In this document: piece after piece, positions 31,259 to 40,686 of the stretch
Numbering within the stretch: the stretch's first letter is position 1
Layout: the number at the start of each line of letters is the position of its first letter
Origin: Ruania suaedae
GTDB taxonomy: Bacteria > Actinomycetota > Actinomycetes > Actinomycetales > Beutenbergiaceae
Reading direction: 5' to 3'
Assembly (NCBI RefSeq): GCF_021049265.1
Contig: NZ_CP088018.1
Coordinates: 1,736,001 to 1,800,000, forward strand
DNA: 64,000 nucleotides
The notes under the pieces: model-generated
The model's database searches: none
What the model saw: the letters and a program-made list of their open reading frames with translations, nothing else
Told to the model about the DNA's origin: nothing
Position numbers and translations under genes: made by a program

Positions 31259-32395
31259 GTGATGACATGGCGGGACGGCGTGGTGCGCAGCACGGGCCGG
31301 CGGTGGCCGGGTGCGGTCGAGCTCGAGGTCGAGGTGAGCGAGCCGGTCGGTGAGGCCGGCAGGCTCGTGCGCGCCCTTGCCTATCCGGAGCTGGTCGGCG
31401 ACCCGGGCGTGGGGACGAGGGTGCTGCTCGCGACCGGTGCCCTGGCCAGGGGGCTGGGCACCGGGGGCTATGCCTTCGTCGTGGCGTGCCCCGACGACCT
31501 GCCCTCCGATCCCCCGATCCGGCCCGGGCATCTGGTCAAGGCCCGTTACACCCCGATGCAGGCGCTGGTGCTGGGAGCGGACGAGCAGGAGGCCCGCAGC
31601 CACGCGCTGCTGGCCGACGCCGATGACCTGGGCGCGCTGCCCGTCGTCGTGGCCGACCTGCACTCGGCGCTGCCGGCGATCGTGGCGGGCGCACGCCACG
31701 AGGCCCTCCGCGCGGGCCTGCGCCCGCCGCGGGTGGCCTATGTCATGACCGACGGCGGTGCGCTGCCGGCCTGGTTCTCGCGCACCGTGGCGTCGTTGCG
31801 CGAGCAGGAGTGGCTGGCCGCCACCATCACCGTCGGGCAGGCGTTCGGCGGTGATCTGGAGGCGGTGACCGTGCACTCGGGGCTACTGGCGGCGCGACTG
31901 GTTGTCGGGGCCGATCTGGTCGTCGTGGCGCAGGGCCCCGGGAACCTCGGGACGGGCACCCGCTGGGGGTTCTCCGGTGTCAGCGCCGGTGAGGCGATCA
32001 ACGCCGCCGGAGTGCTCGGCGGGCGTCCGGTCGCGAGCCTGCGGGTCTCCGGCACCGACCCGCGGGAGCGGCACCGGGGGGTGTCCCACCACAGCCTCAC
32101 CGCCTACGGTCGCGTCGCGATGCACCCCTGCGACGTGGCCGTGCCCGAGCTGGTGGGCCCGCTCGCGGCCCTCGGAGACCTCGTGCAGCAGCACGCGAGC
32201 GAGCTGGCCGCGCGGCACCGGCTGGTGCCGGTCGGAACGGACGGGCTGCACGAGGCGCTGGCCGGCGCACCGGTGCGCCTGTCCACCATGGGGCGCGGAC
32301 TCGAGGAGGATCCGGGTGCGTTCCTAGCGGCTGCCGTCGCGGGCGTCCATGCCACCAGGCTCATGGCGGGCGACCAGCGCGGCGAGCCGGCGTGA
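31259..32395 (+). CDS. DUF3866 family protein
   Basis: This 378-residue protein belongs to the uncharacterised DUF3866 family. Landmarks are RALAYPELVGDPGVGTRV, RYTPMQALVLGADEQE, VVVAQGPGNLGTGTRWGFSG and the ending RLSTMGRGLEEDPGAFLAAA. It has a Rossmann-like alternation of strands and helices and no membrane segment, and the function is unknown. It lies divergently next to pafBC, where related actinobacteria often keep it. Start GTG 31259 or ATG 31262. The last 72 bp overlap the convergent gene. Confidence 0.8.
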   Translation: MMTWRDGVVRSTGRRWPGAVELEVEVSEPVGEAGRLVRALAYPELVGDPGVGTRVLLATGALARGLGTGGYAFVVACPDDLPSDPPIRPGHLVKARYTPMQALVLGADEQEARSHALLADADDLGALPVVVADLHSALPAIVAGARHEALRAGLRPPRVAYVMTDGGALPAWFSRTVASLREQEWLAATITVGQAFGGDLEAVTVHSGLLAARLVVGADLVVVAQGPGNLGTGTRWGFSGVSAGEAINAAGVLGGRPVASLRVSGTDPRERHRGVSHHSLTAYGRVAMHPCDVAVPELVGPLAALGDLVQQHASELAARHRLVPVGTDGLHEALAGAPVRLSTMGRGLEEDPGAFLAAAVAGVHATRLMAGDQRGEPA

Positions 32396-32802: not shown

Positions 32803-33651
32803 CTACAGCCGGCTGGCGTGGATGCCGGTGACGATGATGGCGCGTGCCCCCAGCTCGTACAGCTCGTCCATGATCGGGTTCGTCTGGTTGCGCGGGACCA
32901 TCGCACGCACCGCCTTCCACTTGTCGTCGTGCAGCGGCGAGACCGTGGGTGACTCCAGTCCCGGGGTGATGGCCACGCAGGCCTCCACCCGGTCGACCGG
33001 GCAGTCGTAGTCCATCAGGACGTACTGACGGGCGACCAGCACCCCGTGCAGCCGGCGGTCCAGTGTGGCCAGCCCCGGCTTCGGCTCTTCGCCGTCATCG
33101 GGGCGGATGAGCACGGCCTCCGAACGCAGGATCGGCTCGCCGAAGACGTGCAGACCCGCCGCACGCAGGGTGCCGCCGGTCTCCACCACGTCGGCCACCA
33201 CGTCGGCGACCCCCAGGCGCACGGTCGACTCGATCGCGCCGTCGAGGCGGACGACATGGGCGGTGATACCGCGCTCGCGCAGGTAGGTGCCGACCAGGTG
33301 CGCATAGCTGGTGGCCACCCGCTTGCCGTCGATGTCGGCGAGGGTCTGCACCTGCTCGGGCGGCCCTGCGAAGCGGAAGGTGGAGCCGGCGAAGTTCAGA
33401 GCTCGGTGTTCGATGGCCCGGACGCCGGAGTCGAGCAGCAGGTCGCGGCCGGTGATGCCGGCGTCGACGACGCCCTCGCCGACGTAGACGGCGATGTCGC
33501 GGGGGCGCAGGAAGAAGAACTCGACGTCGTTCTCCTCGTCGGGCAGCACCAGCTCGCGGCCGTCCCGGCGCTGACGGTATCCGGCCTCGCGCAGCATCTG
33601 GCTGGCGGGCTCGGACAGGGAGCCCTTGTTGGGCACGGCGATTCTGAGCAC
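32803..33651 (-). CDS. hisG: ATP phosphoribosyltransferase HisG
   Basis: HisG catalyses the first step of histidine synthesis, joining ATP and PRPP. The 282-residue long-form protein has [16 protein letters not shown] at the start, [25 protein letters not shown], the DADVGITG-like [16 protein letters not shown], and [13 protein letters not shown]. The C-terminal regulatory domain (about 210-282) includes [21 protein letters not shown], the histidine-feedback region. GTG 33651 follows AAGGA. It is cotranscribed with hisE. Confidence 0.93.
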
Positions 33652-33703
33652 GGGGGTCCTTCTTCTCACGTGGTGGCGGGGGTCTGGCGCGTGGTTCCGG
33701 TGC

Positions 33704-33967
33704 TCACAGGTGCTCGTAGACGTCCTCGGGCGTCAGGCCCCGGGCGAGCATCATCACCTGCAGGTGGTAGAGGAGCTGGGAGATCTCCTCGGCCGTCTCC
33801 GCCTCGCTCTGGTACTCGGCCGCCATCCACACCTCGGCGGCCTCCTCGACGATCTTCTTGCCGATGGCATGGACGCCGGCGTCCAGCTCTGCGACGGTGC
33901 CCGAACCCTCCGGGCGGGTCCGGGCCTTGTGCTGGAGCTCGGCGAAGAGGTCGTCGAAGGTTTTCAC
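33704..33967 (-). CDS. hisE: Phosphoribosyl-ATP diphosphatase HisE
   Basis: HisE catalyses the second step of histidine synthesis, hydrolysing phosphoribosyl-ATP. The 87-residue all-helical protein has the MazG-like motif [16 protein letters not shown] (about 37-52) and [15 protein letters not shown] (about 60-74), whose Glu/Asp side chains bind Mg2+. GTG 33967 is preceded 7 nt upstream by TAGGCT, so hisE-hisG may be transcribed separately from the upstream transporter genes. Only these two his genes are in the window. Confidence 0.92.
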
Positions 33968-33974
33968 GCCGCAG

Positions 33975-33980
33975 AGCCTA
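33975..33980 (-). promoter_or_regulatory. -10 box of hisE
   Basis: TAGGCT on the minus strand overlaps the stop codon of the transporter gene and lies 7 nt before GTG 33967, giving leaderless hisE transcription independent of the FMN riboswitch. Confidence 0.45.
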
Positions 33981-34979
33981 CTGGTCTTCGGCGAAGGCGT
34001 CGGTATAGGCCTCCCCGGGCGGCACCGGGGCGGAGGTCAGCTCGACCCCGGCCAGGAACTCCGACATCTCCGCCCAGGGCCCGCGATGGACCCCCCACCC
34101 GGGTCCGGTGCTGCCGTAGAGCGGCACCGTGGCCGCCATGGTGGCGGACATGATGGCCTCCTGCTCCGCGTCGACGGTGCCGGGGATCTCCTCGATGGCG
34201 GCGTCCACGCCGGCCTGCGGGTCGGCGGCGATGTCCTCGAGGGCGCGCCCGACCGCCTCGACGGCCGCGCGTAGCGCCTCGGGCTGCTCCTGGGTGAGGG
34301 CGTCGGTGGTTCCCATGCCGATGCCGACCAGCGGCACCTCCCCCAGCTCCACGGCGCGCACGTCCAGGCCGGTGGCGGCGAACTGCGGGACGTCGTTGTT
34401 CCGGTAGCCCATCACGGCGTCGACGTGCCCTTCGGAGAGAGCACTCTGCTGGGTGAAGCCGATGTACTCGATCTGCACGTCCTCCTGGCTCAGGCCGGCC
34501 TGGTCGAGCATCGCGAGCAGCCCGAACCAGGTCTCACCGAAGGGTCCGGGCACCCCGACGGTGCGCCCGTCCAGGTCGGCCGGTGCGGTGAGGTCGGAGT
34601 CGTCCGGCACGATCAGCGCGACGGGGTAGGTCTCGTACAGCGTTGCGATGCTCACCACCGGGATGCCGGAGTCGCGCGCCTGCATCATCTCGTCCCCGCC
34701 GGCCACCACGACGTCCTCGGTGCCGTCGGAGAGCGCGCCGAACAGGTCCTCGGACTCCCCGTGGTGGCGCAGCGTGACGTCGACGCCGGCCTCGTCGAAG
34801 TAGCCCCGCTGCGCGGCGAGGTAGAAGGGGGCGAACTGCACATTGGGCACGTAGGTGAGCCCGATCGTCAGCTCCGCGTCGGCCGGGGCGTCCCCCGCCT
34901 CCTCGGGCGGCGCACAGGCCGCCAGCGCGGCGGCGACGAGGGCGAGGGCAGCCGGCAGGCTGCGGTGGATCTTCACCAT
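33978..34979 (-). CDS. ribY: ABC transporter substrate-binding lipoprotein, RibY-like
   Basis: This 333-residue lipoprotein has a signal with lipobox LAAC (about 18-21). The mature part has the NMT1/THI5-like fold used for pyrimidine and flavin precursors: [56 protein letters not shown] and [15 protein letters not shown]. Its gene lies directly downstream of an FMN riboswitch and permease, and such pairs are known as RibXY, predicted riboflavin importers. Substrate specificity is inferred from the riboswitch, not from binding residues. It overlaps the permease gene by 7 nt. Confidence 0.8.
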
Positions 34980-35752
34980 CTGACCTTTCTCTCCCAGGCT
35001 CGGACGAGCACGTAGAAACCGACCGCACCGGCGGCCAGGACGAGCAGGGTCGTGAACATGCCGACGGTGTCGGAGCGGTCACGGTAGATCGAGAGCAGCA
35101 GGCCCAGTCCCTGGCCGCCCATGACGAACTCGCCCACCACGGCGCCCGTGATCGACAGGACGAACCCGTTGCGGACGCCGGCGAGCACTGCCGGCAGCGC
35201 GAGCGGTGCCTCGATGTGGGCGAGCAGGCGCCATCGTCCGGCACCGTCGAGACGGGCCGCACCGAGGATCTCCTCGTCCAGCGTGGTCAGGCCGAGGGTG
35301 GTGTTGACCACGATCGGGAAGAAGACGAGGAGCGCGCACAGCAGCGCCACCGGCAGCAGGCCGTAGCCGAACCACAGCACGATCAACGGGGCGAGCGCGA
35401 CGGCGGGGATCGCCTGCGTGGCGGCCAGATAGGGGCCGAGCGCGGCGGAGGCCAGTCGCGACCGGGCCAGCAGGTAACCCAGCGGCAGGGCGACGGCGAG
35501 GCCGATCAGCCCGCCGAGCAGGCTCTCGGTGGCGGTGGTCGCGGCGTAGCCGATGATGTCGCCGTCTGCGATCTCGGCGACCAGGCGTACCGCCAGGGCG
35601 CTCGGTGCGGGTAGCACGCGGGTGGGCGTCAGCACGGCGAGGAGCTGCCACAGCAGCAGGCCGGCCGCCCCGAGGACCAACGGGGCGAAGACGGAGGATC
35701 CGACCAGGTCGGCGGCGTCAGCCGGTCGCGACTGCGTCATCCTGCGTGCCAC
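34973..35752 (-). CDS. ribX: ABC transporter permease, RibX-like
   Basis: This 259-residue inner-membrane permease has five to six hydrophobic helices and the EAA loop ILGAARLDGAGRWRLLAHIEAPLALPAVLAGVRN, the docking site for an ATPase. It resembles the SsuC/ThiX/RibX permease group. GTG 35752 is chosen because GAGAGGA lies 9 nt upstream; an ATG lies 12 nt further in. It is the first gene after the FMN riboswitch. No ATPase gene is adjacent, as in described RibXY systems, so a shared ATPase would be needed. Confidence 0.8.
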   Translation of the reverse strand: MARRMTQSRPADAADLVGSSVFAPLVLGAAGLLLWQLLAVLTPTRVLPAPSALAVRLVAEIADGDIIGYAATTATESLLGGLIGLAVALPLGYLLARSRLASAALGPYLAATQAIPAVALAPLIVLWFGYGLLPVALLCALLVFFPIVVNTTLGLTTLDEEILGAARLDGAGRWRLLAHIEAPLALPAVLAGVRNGFVLSITGAVVGEFVMGGQGLGLLLSIYRDRSDTVGMFTTLLVLAAGAVGFYVLVRAWERKVRW

Positions 35753-35824
35753 GGCGACTCGTCCTCTCCCCAGCCATACCCGGGGTGGACGACGTGCGCG
35801 GCGCGCGTCGACCGACGGCGTCAT

Positions 35825-35836
35825 GTGTCATGACAC
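35825..35836. repeat. 12-bp palindrome after the riboswitch
   Basis: GTGTCATGACAC is a perfect palindrome placed directly after the FMN aptamer in transcript order. It could be part of the expression platform (35753-35838), which otherwise shows no clear terminator. Confidence 0.4.
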
Positions 35837-35838
35837 CG

Positions 35839-35958
35839 CGTGCTTCCTCCCATCCGGACTTTCACCGTCGGTCCCGGAGTTCCACCAGGTCAACCGATCT
35901 TGCGATCGGGTCGCGGACTGTCACCGCCGGCTCGGACTTTCACCGACCCCGGAGCACG
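35839..35958 (-). promoter_or_regulatory. FMN riboswitch (RFN element)
   Basis: Read on the minus strand, the 120 nt hold all conserved RFN blocks in order: GGTGAAAGTCC, CCGGCGGTGACAGTCCGCGA, GGTGGAACTCCGGGACC, then CGACGGTGAAAGTCCGG and GATGGGAGGA. The closing stem pairs CGTGCT with AGCACG. It senses FMN and turns down the downstream transporter genes. The expression platform is uncertain; sequestering the GAGAGGA ribosome site at 35762-35768 is one possibility. Confidence 0.93.
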
Positions 35959-36001
35959 TTGGTCTCTGGTCCTATTCTGGCACAGGCGACCGGGTGGACG
36001 T

Positions 36002-36673
36002 TCAGGGGCGGAACGCTGCCGTGGCGGCCTCGCGCAGCGCCGCGATCTCCTCGACGGGGTCCTCGGCGGAGTAGACGGCCGAGCCGGCCACGAAGATGTT
36101 CGCCCCGGCCTCGGCGGCCGCACCGATGGTCTCGCGCGAGACTCCGCCGTCGACCTGGATCCATACGTCGGCTCCTGAGCGGGTGATCGCGTCACGGGTG
36201 CGGCGGATCTTCGGCAGCGTGCCGGTGATGAAGGACTGCCCGCCGAATCCGGGCTCGACGGTCATCACCAGCACCATGTCGAACTCGGGCAGCAGGTCGA
36301 GATAGCTCTCGATGCCGGTGGCCGGCCGTAGCGCCAGACCCGCCCGGGCGCCCTGGGCACGCAGCTCGCGAGCGAGGCGTACCGGCGCGGTCGCGGCCTC
36401 GGCGTGGAAGGTCACCGACGCCGCGCCCGCCTCGGCGAAGGCGGGGGCCCAGGTGTCGGGGGCGTCGATCATCAGGTGCACGTCTGCGGGAACATCGGTG
36501 GTGGCCAGCACACGCTCCACCACCGGTAGCCCGAAGGTCATGTTCGGTACGAAATGGTTGTCCATCACGTCCAGGTGCACGTAGTCGGCGCTGGAGATGC
36601 GGCCGATCTCGCGGGTGAGGTCGGCCAGGTCCGCGTTGAGCACGCTGGGTGAGATCAGGATGGGAACGTCCAT
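36002..36673 (-). CDS. rpe: Ribulose-phosphate 3-epimerase
   Basis: This pentose-phosphate pathway enzyme interconverts ribulose and xylulose 5-phosphate. The 223-residue TIM barrel has [34 protein letters not shown] (catalytic D and metal H), [24 protein letters not shown] and [16 protein letters not shown] 36673 fits the family start and has TACGCT 7 nt upstream. An ATG at 36700 overlapping the rsmB stop (ATGA) is an alternative with 9 extra residues. Confidence 0.93.
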
Positions 36674-36680
36674 GTCCGCC

Positions 36681-36686
36681 AGCGTA
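36681..36686 (-). promoter_or_regulatory. -10 box of rpe
   Basis: TACGCT on the minus strand lies 7 nt before ATG 36673, consistent with leaderless rpe mRNA. Confidence 0.35.
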
Positions 36687-36696
36687 TCGCCGGGCG

Positions 36697-38157
36697 TCAT
36701 CGGCGGATGAGCGCGAGGAACATCGCATCGGTGCCGTGGCGGTGGGGCCACAGCTGTAGATAGTGGCCCTGCTGGCCGGGAACGGGGGCGCCGACGAGTT
36801 GCTCGGTGATCGCGACCGCGTCGAGGACCTCGGCGTGCTCGGCGCGCTTGAGCACGTCCGTCACCACCGTCTGGGTCTCGGCCAGGTGCGGTGAGCACGT
36901 GACATAGGCCACCACTCCCCCGGGCCGGGTCGCGGCGAGCGCGGAGGTCAGCAGTTCGCGCTGCAGGGGGCCCAGCGTGGCCAGGTCGGAGAGGCTCCGG
37001 CGCCACCGTGACTCCGGTCGGCGCCGCAGCGCGCCTAGCCCGGTGCAGGGGGCATCCACGAGGACCCGGTCGAAGCCGCCGGGGTGCTCCTCGCCCAGCT
37101 CGCGCCCGTCCCCGGTACGCACGCTCAGTCCGGGAAGGACCCGGCGGACCGCCGTCATGGACTGTTCGACCAGGCGGGCCCGGTGGGCCGAGATCTCGTT
37201 GGCGAGCAGCTCGCCGTCGGGGGCGCGTTCGGCGAGCAGGGCGCCCAGCAGGGCGGCCTTGCCACCGGGGCCGGCGCACAGGTCGAGCCAGCGGGAGTCC
37301 TCTCCTTCGACGGGCGCGGCGGCGGCCACGAGGGTCACCAGCTGGCTGCCCTCGTCCTGGACCCCGATCCGGGACTCACGCACCGCCGTCAGTGCGCCCG
37401 GGTCCCCGTGCTCGAGGGAGCGCGCGGTCGGCGCCCAGCGGGTCGGCCGGGTCTCGGGGGCGTCGGCATCGGTGGCCAGCCCGGGCCGCAGCACCAGGGT
37501 GACGGCCGGTGCGGTGTTGTCGGCCTCGAGCAACGCGGGTAGGTCCGTGGCGCCGTCGGGGGTGGCGGACAGACTCTGCCGCAACGACCGGACGATCCAG
37601 GCGGGGTGGGAGGTCGTGAGGGCCAGGCGGGCCGTCTCGTCGGGCTGCTCGGCGGCGATGATGTCCAGCCACTGCGCGAGCGGACGTTCGGCGATCCGCC
37701 GCAGGATCGCGTTGACGAACTGTGCTGATCCGGCGCCGACGGTCGCGCGGGCCAGGCCGACGGTGGCCGAGACGGCCGCGTGGTCGGGCACCCGCATGGC
37801 GAGCAGCTGGTGGGCGCCGAGCCGGAGGACGTCGAGCACGGGCGGGTCGAGCCGGTCGAGCGGGCGGTCGACGACCGTGTCGATGATCGCGTCGTAGCGG
37901 CCGCGGTAGCGCAGCGTGCCGTAGGTCAGCTCGGTGGCGAAACCGGCGTCGCGGCCGGTGATGTGACGCTCGCGCAGCATCGGGGGCAGCGTGAGGTTGG
38001 CGTAGGCGTCGGAGTCCTCGACGATGCGCAGCGTGTCGTAGGAGGCCCGGCGGGCCGGATCGGCGGTCTTGGCGCGATCCTGGGGCCTGCGCTCGGTCCG
38101 CGCCCGGGAGCCGTTCGGCCGGCCGGTGCTGGGTCGGCCGCGGCGGTCCTCGCTCAT
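36697..38157 (-). CDS. rsmB: 16S rRNA m5C967 methyltransferase RsmB
   Basis: This 486-residue protein has an N-terminal NusB-like RNA-binding region (about 40-160) and a C-terminal methyltransferase. The latter shows [40 protein letters not shown] (first catalytic Cys) and [17 protein letters not shown] (second Cys). An Arg-rich leader precedes the first domain. It overlaps fmt by ATGA, so fmt-rsmB-(rpe) form an operon. This is the usual actinobacterial order. Confidence 0.92.
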
Positions 38158-39108: not shown

Positions 39109-39114
39109 AGTCTA
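39109..39114 (-). promoter_or_regulatory. -10 box of fmt
   Basis: TAGACT on the minus strand lies 7 nt before ATG 39101 and predicts a leaderless fmt-rsmB transcript. Confidence 0.4.
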
Positions 39115-40686
39115 GGTCCGCGGCGTGCCCTGCACGTGCCGGTGTCCCCGTCGGCGGTGGTGGTCGGCGGGGTCCGGGGCGGGGTGATCAGAAGGGTGGC
39201 GGGTCGGTGCTACCGGTGCTGCCGGGACCGCGTGCTGCTGGTGGCTGCCCGCGGGGAGGACGGACGGCATCGCCTTGGCGGCGGTGCGCATCGAGTCCAA
39301 GGCTCGTTGGCGCACCCGTGCGGTCGAAGTCGCTGCGGTCCCCGGTGAGCCGGGCAGGTCGAAGGTGCCGGCGGGGGTGACCAGATAGGCCGCGCCGTCG
39401 GGACTGGCCCAGTGGTAAGTGCCGGGGGTGATCACCTGGTAGGTCCAGCCCGCGTGCGTCTTCGCGCGATGGTGGCGCCGGCACAGGGCTGCCAGGTTGG
39501 TCGAGGTGGTGGGCCCGCCGTCCTCGTGGGGGTCGATGTGGTCCAGGTCGCCGGCCCGAGCGCTGCGGTGGCAGAACGGGAACCGGCACGTGCCATCGCG
39601 CAGGATGACCTGCTCACGCAGCCTGGGGCTGGCTTCATAGGTGGTGGCCGCGTAGTCGGTGTTGAGGTCGATCACCGGCCGCACCAGGACCCGACCGGCG
39701 GTGGCGCACCAGGTGCGGACCTGCTCAGCGGTGATCGGGGAGCGGGTGTTCTCACACCGCCCCACCCCAGACCCGTCGTGGGTGAGGTCGCCGGCGGCCA
39801 GGTGCAGATACAGCAACACCGTGCGCCCGTTGGGGTCGCCGGAGTCACTGGCACGGTCATCGTCGCCGGTGGCCCGGGCCAGGGAGGTGTGGCCGCGGGC
39901 GAGGTCGCCGAGGGCGACCGAGCGGCGCACGTCCTCACTGGCACCGGGCATGAGGGCCGTCAACGCGGCCGCGCGGGCGGAGATGGCTGCTTCCAGGTCC
40001 AGTGCGTCGGCGAGGTCGAGGCCGCCGCCGAAGGTGATGACCGCACCCGCGCTGGGATCGGTCGCGGTCGCCACCTGATCGAGGTCGATGTCGACGCGTC
40101 GCCCCTCCAACGCCGCCTCGCGGTCCTTCTCGGCCTGGTCGGGGTCGAACCTCGCCACCGCCGCAGCCACGGTGCGTTCGATCTGAGCCACCGAGCACGT
40201 CCCGATCGTCCAGGCGACCTGGGCATCGACCCAGGCGGCACCAGCGGCGGGGAGCTTCTTGCTCAACCGGGCCACCGTCCTGGCCCGATGGACACTGACC
40301 TGCCCGGCCCTGACCCGGGACCACAGCACCGGCAGGCGGTAGGCCAGCTCGACCACCGCACCGACGTAGTTCATGGCGGCTTCGTTGGACTGTCCCAGTG
40401 CTGCGGCCAGGCGGGTGAAACCGAGATCGGCCACCCACGGGGCACCCTCCCCAGCCAGCCGCATCGGCTGCTCGGTCCCCGGCACCCCGACATGAACGTC
40501 GGGGTCGAAGACCGCGTCCTGGGTCGTCTCCTCCGGGTCCACGACCGACTCACGCACCCACGCCAGCACCAACTCCGCGCGCTCGACCTCCACCGCCCGA
40601 GCCGCCACCCCATTGGCCCTCACGGCAGCCAGCACCTCTCGCTCGGCCGGAGCCGAGAAGGAGGAAGCGGTGGCTGTCGAGGTCAT
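39112..40686 (-). CDS. DUF222/HNH endonuclease family protein
   Basis: This 524-residue protein has an N-terminal DUF222 region (about 60-330; [19 protein letters not shown]) and a C-terminal HNH nuclease motif, [20 protein letters not shown]...[15 protein letters not shown], at about 385-425, with zinc-binding C/H residues. Actinobacteria carry many copies of this 13E12-like family with no defined role; they behave like selfish or mobile genes. It sits between two housekeeping genes, in an insertion point. GGGAGG precedes ATG 40686. Confidence 0.85.

Follow-up and report, generated by a model that had tools for sequence, protein, structure and literature searches.

An FMN riboswitch-headed RibXY-type importer in Ruania suaedae and a candidate sugar ATPase partner

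In the genome of the actinobacterium Ruania suaedae, an FMN riboswitch stands before genes for a permease and a binding lipoprotein that have no ATPase gene beside them, raising the questions of what this importer carries, what powers it, and whether its host can make riboflavin for itself. The RibXY system was named in Chloroflexi, where it is described without an ATPase (PMC3766115), and RibXY of C. aurantiacus (Caur_0816-0817) complements an Escherichia coli riboflavin auxotroph (PMC4418817). From the available portions of the literature, RibXY is also associated with FMN riboswitches in Actinobacteria, with transporters often co-occurring with synthesis genes (PMC4418817), and it is present in prototrophs and auxotrophs alike (PMC6593275). 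The best overall explanation of the R. suaedae locus, held with a little more than even confidence, is an actinobacterial subtype of the RibXY riboflavin importer that is governed by a translational FMN switch and energized by a shared sugar ATPase. RibXY and its missing ATPase are already published, as far as the consulted portions of these sources extend; what is new is a lead on the ATPase partner. No proposal of a sugar ATPase for RibXY was found in the open literature, which was surveyed mostly by listing and with subscription journals outside its scope.

Organization of the locus

The window, i.e., the whole stretch of DNA analysed here, comprises 64,000 nucleotides (C1:1736001-1800000) of the one-contig R. 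suaedae genome (3,557,440 bases, 99.98% complete). The locus has the order rpe, FMN aptamer, ribX, ribY, hisE, hisG (Table 1). Pfam searches matched BPD_transp_1 in the ribX reading frame as first drawn (34973-35824; 3.8e-30), NMT1 in ribY, and PRA-PH/HisE, HisG and ribulose-phosphate epimerase in the flanking genes. These matches agree with the original prediction, which had read a permease and an NMT1/THI5-like lipoprotein followed by hisE-hisG, with rpe upstream, and its assignment of the pair to a RibXY-type importer with an FMN riboswitch and no neighbouring ATPase gene is borne out by the gene content: one BPD permease and then one NMT1/THI5 binding lipoprotein, a pair that recurs in relatives.

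Table 1. Features of the ribXY locus and the orphan ATPase of the same genome (window positions unless marked C1 or L105)
Feature	Position	Strand	Evidence or remark
FMN riboswitch aptamer (RF00050)	35837..35960	-	cmscan 90.4 bits, full model
ribX, RibXY permease, start corrected to GTG	34973..35752	-	PF00528; coupling loop GAARLDGAGRWRLLAHIEAPLALP
ribY, RibXY substrate-binding lipoprotein, 7 nt overlap with ribX	33978..34979	-	PF09084 7.3e-43
hisE, begins 10 nt past ribY	33704..33967	-	PF01503
hisG	32803..33669	-	PF01634, PF08029
rpe, stops 41 nt before aptamer	36002..36676	-	PF00834
First expression-platform hairpin (predicted)	35813..35838	-	RNAalifold columns 13-45
Predicted hairpin burying the ribX ribosome-binding site, CCCC..GGGG stem	35759..35792	-	fold z -3.70
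Putative ribX ribosome-binding site GGGGAGAGGA	35762..35771	-	similar sequence in near relatives
Orphan UgpC/MsmX/MsiK-type ATPase	C1:583220-584419 (L105:2718-3923)		401 aa, NF008653 UgpC 465.6 bits, cut-off 432

The RibY sequence carries the lipobox LAAC and is the sole PF09084 match in the genome; its best matches among named genomes are from Ruania species, and its best solved relatives by sequence are the pyrimidine-binding proteins 3ix1 and THI5. RibX finds its best NCBIfam matches in SaoP and SsuC, both below cut-off, and its solved relatives include a nitrate permease. A MalF/MalG-type permease pair with a sugar-binding protein is absent, RibX being a single permease accompanied by an NMT1-type binding protein. 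The start of ribX was revised from 35824 to the more probable GTG at 35750-35752, giving a protein of 259 aa, on the basis that near relatives share a similar ribosome-binding site and start codon there; in R. rhizosphaerae (L006), an in-frame stop codon lies between the position of the old start and that species' own ATG.

The hisE-hisG genes are probably carried on the FMN-controlled transcript, because hisE starts so closely after the ribY stop (33967-33978). Also near the his genes, a DUF3866 protein is encoded on the plus strand (31259-32395; 6e-121), and a 524-aa HNH-domain protein (39112-40686) is located upstream of the fmt-rsmB-rpe run.

The FMN riboswitch and its expression platform

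The aptamer matches RF00050 end to end (Rfam, minus strand; E 2.3e-19, gathering score 66.2) and no other Rfam match in the window reaches the gathering threshold; the element originally drawn at 35839-35958 is real, its limits differing by at most 2 bases at each end. Searching the whole genome with RF00050 detected two riboswitches, this one and another at C1:763183-763313. Among relatives, a regular expression for the FMN aptamer motif placed it at a distance of 9-388 nt upstream of the ribX match in all but one of 39 actinobacterial/Sphaerobacter loci, the exception (L020) lying at a contig edge, and Infernal detected FMN riboswitches in each of the 32 actinobacterial/Sphaerobacter RibXY genomes searched. 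Surplus matches to the regular expression, such as that at 2472 in L015, gained no support from the covariance-model search.

With ribX starting at the GTG, a leader of ∼85 nt follows the aptamer, and among the 14 leaders read, those of the near relatives have a ribosome-binding site and start codon ∼80-95 nt past it. The segment 35740-35840 folds with a z-score of -3.70, and RNAalifold applied to 11 leaders predicts two hairpins, one that follows the aptamer and another (columns 73-100, equivalent to 35764-35789) over the ribosome-binding site, the covariation in this platform being weak (two-sided change in 4 of 19 pairs, covariation term -0.05). No terminator-like or sigma-70 promoter-like sites were found in 33500-36900. 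The folding predictions make it likely that FMN control of ribX is translational and acts through the predicted ribosome-binding-site hairpin. When FMN is plentiful, this hairpin would form and translation of ribX would fall, with that of ribY dropping along with it through translational coupling. Given the proximity of the end of rpe to the aptamer and of hisE to ribY, control at the level of translation would spare transcription of rpe and the his genes.

Riboflavin synthesis genes and the rpe-hisE interval

The second FMN riboswitch heads a ribD-ribE-ribBA-ribH operon (L002), so that all four synthesis genes sought in the genome are present and lie together; the only RibB in the genome, by PF00926 search, is the one at C1:765221. 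NCBIfam scores exceed the cut-offs for RibD (TIGR00326, 287.2 bits; cut-off 156.35), riboflavin synthase (NF006767, 195.7; 155), RibB (TIGR00506, 222.8; 177.45), RibA (NF001591, 193.7; 148) and RibH (TIGR00114, 128.6; 84.6), and fall below them for a further RibA model (TIGR00505, 192.7; 205.85) and for full-length RibBA (NF006803, 548.8; 569). Since the operon is complete and under its own FMN riboswitch, R. suaedae is, as judged from its genes, very probably a riboflavin prototroph alongside its importer.

The genomic position of ribXY was compared across relatives. The order rpe-ribX-ribY-hisE-hisG was found in 10 loci among the best 80 of 187 confirmed loci of RibY relatives, which were fetched; these belong to Ruania, Occultella, Pseudactinotalea and 'Actinotalea caeni' (L006-L013, L015) and to Mobiluncus curtisii (L043). 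In an order-wide sample of 79 genomes, in which the best-scoring loci were read, ribH is followed by hisE in 12 of 30 RibH loci. Of a further 29 FMN loci retrieved, nine have rpe ahead of a synthesis gene headed by the FMN element and four have it ahead of FMN-ribX (L148, L150, L151, L158). Reading of longer stretches showed rpe, rib synthesis genes and hisE side by side in 11 loci, each from a different genome of the order (L180-L185, L193, L200, L207, L208, L214). These loci resemble the window in their flanks and in the FMN riboswitch after rpe, and differ in having synthesis genes where the window has ribXY. In the members read of the family to which R. suaedae belongs (by kinship labels, its own genome with G061, G045, G076, G091 and G105, of which G045 and G105 coincide in coordinates with Occultella glacieicola, G003, and Pseudactinotalea suaedae, G006), ribXY is located between rpe and hisE and the rib operons are found elsewhere; in none of the loci read from close relatives does a rib operon adjoin rpe together with ribXY. 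Thus ribXY stands where other genomes of the order, members of several related families, keep their synthesis genes, as the original prediction had proposed from position, and synthesis and uptake of one vitamin swap places between the same two neighbour genes. The earlier interpretation holds for the type of importer, the lack of an adjacent ATPase gene, the riboswitch and the occupation of the rib operon's usual position; the riboflavin dependence that it had suggested does not stand, given the organism's own rib operon.

In Pseudactinotalea suaedae (L011:2900-7000) and 'Actinotalea caeni' (L012:3750-6850), ∼3-4 kb separate rpe from the riboswitch, and most of the reading frames there code for proteins rich in repeats, of GDP (collagen-like) or PV type. 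These gaps gave no match to the four rib proteins, which discounts a concealed rib operon.

Dependence on imported riboflavin may be real in some relatives, judging by searches for RibH, the lumazine synthase (PF00885), which matched in 15 of the 32 RibXY genomes and not in the remaining 17, several of them draft or metagenome assemblies. Two FMN riboswitches were detected in 14 of the 32, all with RibH; in the fifteenth genome with RibH (G009), the rib contig is cut inside ribD (L220). A member of the same family, G091 (1 contig, 100% complete), has one FMN riboswitch, with ribXY between rpe and hisE (L211), and gave no match to RibH, the one enzyme searched for. By its RibXY, the L012 genome, which bears the name Actinotalea caeni JCM 30447, falls with Pseudactinotalea; the name is perhaps misplaced. 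It is a possible riboflavin auxotroph, with a single FMN riboswitch and without a RibH match.

Ancestry of the rib operons

A four-gene tree of 49 rib operons was built by a quick method, the Sphaerobacter rib locus (L217) being left out; it supersedes a RibBA-only tree in which the R. suaedae sequence lay on a long branch. The four Ruania operons, including that of R. suaedae, form a long branch of their own. The Occultella operons pair, with support 100, with the operon of one genome from a different family (L189), and both Pseudactinotalea operons stand apart. Constraining the ten operons of the family to a single clade lowers the likelihood by 266.9 log units (LG+G4; p-AU 4.7e-35), and the AU test also rejects the groupings Occultella plus Pseudactinotalea (2.6e-06) and Ruania plus Pseudactinotalea (0.0048). 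The RibXY sequences of Ruania, Occultella, Pseudactinotalea and 'A. caeni' fall together (11 rows, support 99), with the G091 row on a long branch outside this group. The grouping of the Occultella operons (L174-L176, L179) with that of G075 (L189) is suggestive of horizontal transfer.

Two other histories have to be weighed. Loss of the synthesis genes, leaving the organism dependent on imported riboflavin, would fit the occupation of the usual rib position by ribXY and the relatives without a RibH match, but is very improbable for a genome with ribD-ribE-ribBA-ribH under its own FMN riboswitch. It is also conceivable that the rib operon moved in the family ancestor and was inherited vertically, without loss or re-acquisition; the single rib gene order kept by the family operons read (L173 without a ribE match) is consistent with such a move, and the long branch of the Ruania operons weighs against the reading preferred here. 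This history is rather unlikely, however, as one family clade is rejected by the AU tests and the Occultella operons group with an operon from outside the family. That the family operons do not constitute one clade suggests instead that the old operon was displaced or lost and that synthesis was later acquired separately, a sequence of loss or displacement and re-acquisition that the trees make fairly probable.

Search for a RibZ-like ATPase

In Chloroflexi-type loci, an ABC ATPase (RibZ, recognized by motif) follows ribY in 35 of the 39 rows with a readable loop. No ABC ATPase reading frame was found within 1.5 kb downstream of ribY in any of the 39 actinobacterial/Sphaerobacter loci, nor in L211. 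A RibZ profile (A1) was built from 12 RibZ sequences and calibrated on 25 ribY-linked ATPases outside the profile, which scored 315.7-429.0 bits; the best match in the R. suaedae genome reached 182 bits, so that the search for a partner returned no RibZ-like ATPase and, by other profiles, one orphan UgpC/MsmX-type ATPase, discussed below. There are 97 ABC ATPase matches in this genome; eight for which NCBIfam best names were obtained are of glutamine, ectoine, phosphonate, FtsE, LolD, MacB, haem and F420-0 type, with no NitT-type name among them. A second orphan importer ATPase (C1:1138764) was rejected as a candidate, as it adjoins a reading frame that reads as an FtsX/MacB-type exporter permease.

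Across the 32 RibXY genomes, 24 have a NitT-type match at E<=1e-58, the highest scoring 315 bits, nearly as much as the weakest RibZ. In R. rhizosphaerae (G001), a near relative, there are five NitT-type matches, with at least one permease encoded next to the two whose loci were retrieved (L244, L262). Eight genomes (G016, G019, G022, G024, G028, G029, G030, G031) have no match at this threshold among the matches listed (at most 78 candidates per genome). Seven of these eight are also without a RibH match and would thus rely on RibXY without a recognizable NitT-type ATPase.

The RibX coupling loop

By sequence search, the loop of RibX aligns with the same region of a nitrate permease and of 7ahc, which we take to be OpuA. 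This EAA loop is the docking site of the permease on the ATPase (PMC7658222, PMC8603345). In actinobacterial/Sphaerobacter RibX the loop has the form xAAxxDGA (GAARLDGAGRWRLLAHIEAPLALP in the window), whereas in Chloroflexi RibX it is mostly (E/D)LMRSLxA. The count was made over 85 loci, two of which (L073, L081) gave no match over the loop. The xAAxxDGA-type loop is present in 44 of 44 actinobacterial/Sphaerobacter rows, counting the variants DTA (L150) and AAGRMDGA (L023) and with L158 and L008 probably representing one genome; 40 of these rows, L211 included, were checked for an ATPase beside ribY and none has one. A DGA-type loop occurs in none of the 39 Chloroflexi-type rows (an ATPase adjoins in 35 and is missing in 3, and the remaining locus is too short), nor in any of 25 control permease matches beside NitT-type ATPases of RibXY genomes (from 18 of 20 loci; L251 and L260 gave none). 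Chloroflexi RibXY are homologous, RibY being 29-38% identical to that of the window, and their set is mixed, with the FMN motif detected in just 21 of 41 loci; the loop is never DGA among those 21. Three Chloroflexi loci (L037, L053, L058) have no neighbouring RibZ, yet no DGA loop either. The loop switch probably represents one evolutionary event inherited by the 44 rows, which are therefore not independent.

The same motif was counted within the R. suaedae genome, using all 128 PF00528 domains and the pattern D[GT][AL]. Of the 99 permease domains that have no ATPase encoded within 3 kb on their own strand, 87 carry it, RibX included; of the 29 that do have one within this distance, none does. 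The contrast is confounded with family, since the motif carriers apart from RibX resemble CUT1 sugar permeases. The 12 ATPase-less misses include DGC, DGG, DGT and DGS variants and unrecognized loops. Among the 29, the domain at C1:3502860, whose partner (3503798) has the motif, probably belongs to a sugar permease that happens to lie near another ATPase.

The orphan ATPase (Table 1) contains an OB_MalK domain and is the single UgpC/MsmX-type ATPase of the genome at E<=1e-75. There are no PF00528 domains within 40 kb of it, and the genes around it look like those for trehalose-phosphate synthase and phosphatase. It scores only 159 with the RibZ profile. Homologues were detected in all 36 genomes searched (partial in G018), both Chloroflexi controls included, so that the presence of this ATPase does not discriminate. 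Because the RibX loop is of the CUT1 xAAxxDGA form, this ATPase is the one most likely to drive RibX, and we consider it moderately probable, from the loop and the gene inventory, that RibX depends on this shared sugar ATPase. It is slightly favoured that the actinobacterial RibXY branch gave up its own ATPase and had its docking loop re-tooled for the shared one.

Substrate and energization of the importer

Riboflavin is very likely the substrate of RibXY. RibY would capture riboflavin at the outer surface of the membrane, and RibX, probably as a homodimer, would carry it in. Another cargo, such as a thiamine precursor or a flavin analogue, with FMN control being incidental, is improbable. 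It could be entertained in that the best solved relatives of RibY bind pyrimidines and homologues are reported under thiamine riboswitches and a methionine T-box (PMC4418817), but the FMN aptamer motif is found upstream in 38 of 39 loci, the 17 RibXY genomes without a RibH match would need an importer, and flavin binding by Chloroflexus RibY has been reported (PMC4418817, citing Rodionova et al.). A greater, though still minor, probability attaches to a RibXY riboflavin importer that uses another ATPase of the genome (MetN-like, exporter-like or of amino acid type) or none at all. The many ABC ATPases of the genome would offer such partners, and in the E. coli complementation Chloroflexus RibXY alone was active, so that a foreign ATPase or none sufficed (PMC4418817). 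The retention of the EAA loop in all rows nevertheless argues for docking, and none of the organism's 29 permease domains with a nearby ATPase has a DGA loop. The riboflavin importer docked on the sugar ATPase is the reading retained below.

Comparison with known systems

As far as the available text of the cited sources extends, the window shares with RibXY of Chloroflexi and Actinobacteria (PMC3766115, PMC4418817) the FMN riboswitch, a permease with an NMT1/THI5-type binding protein, the lack of an ATPase gene in the operon and the possible co-occurrence with synthesis genes; it differs in its rpe-hisE location, DGA-type loop and proposed sugar ATPase partner. RibXYZ of Chloroflexi (ribZ encoding the ATPase; PMC4418817) have homologous RibX and RibY and differ in the ATPase gene beside ribY and in their NitT-type loop. 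CUT1 importers with a multitask ATPase (MsmX, MsmK; PMC7658222, PMC8603345) resemble RibX in the xAAxxDGA-type loop, as read in the sugar-type permeases of R. suaedae itself, and likewise lack an ATPase gene nearby, an orphan UgpC/MalK-type ATPase being encoded elsewhere; in contrast to them, the RibXY importer has one NitT-like permease, paired with a binding protein of NMT1 type, and a vitamin as its proposed substrate.

The RibX loop motif thus provides a concrete, testable ATPase partner for RibXY. According to PMC7658222, in its available portion, reports of a shared ATPase are confined to CUT1 sugar importers, a rule that is not absolute, since FhuC is described as a shared ATPase for iron compounds (PMC10147376). 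If the proposed partnership is true, a vitamin importer running on a sugar ATPase would break the CUT1-only statement of PMC7658222, and coupling loops may predict the partners of orphan permeases. Vitamin and sugar uptake would then share one motor, tying vitamin supply to sugar transport, and the sugar ATPase would be indispensable for vitamin supply in species without synthesis genes. In R. suaedae, the orphan ATPase would presumably power sugar importers as well as RibX; set against the 99 permease domains without a nearby ATPase, this single UgpC/MsmX-type ATPase may serve many importers.
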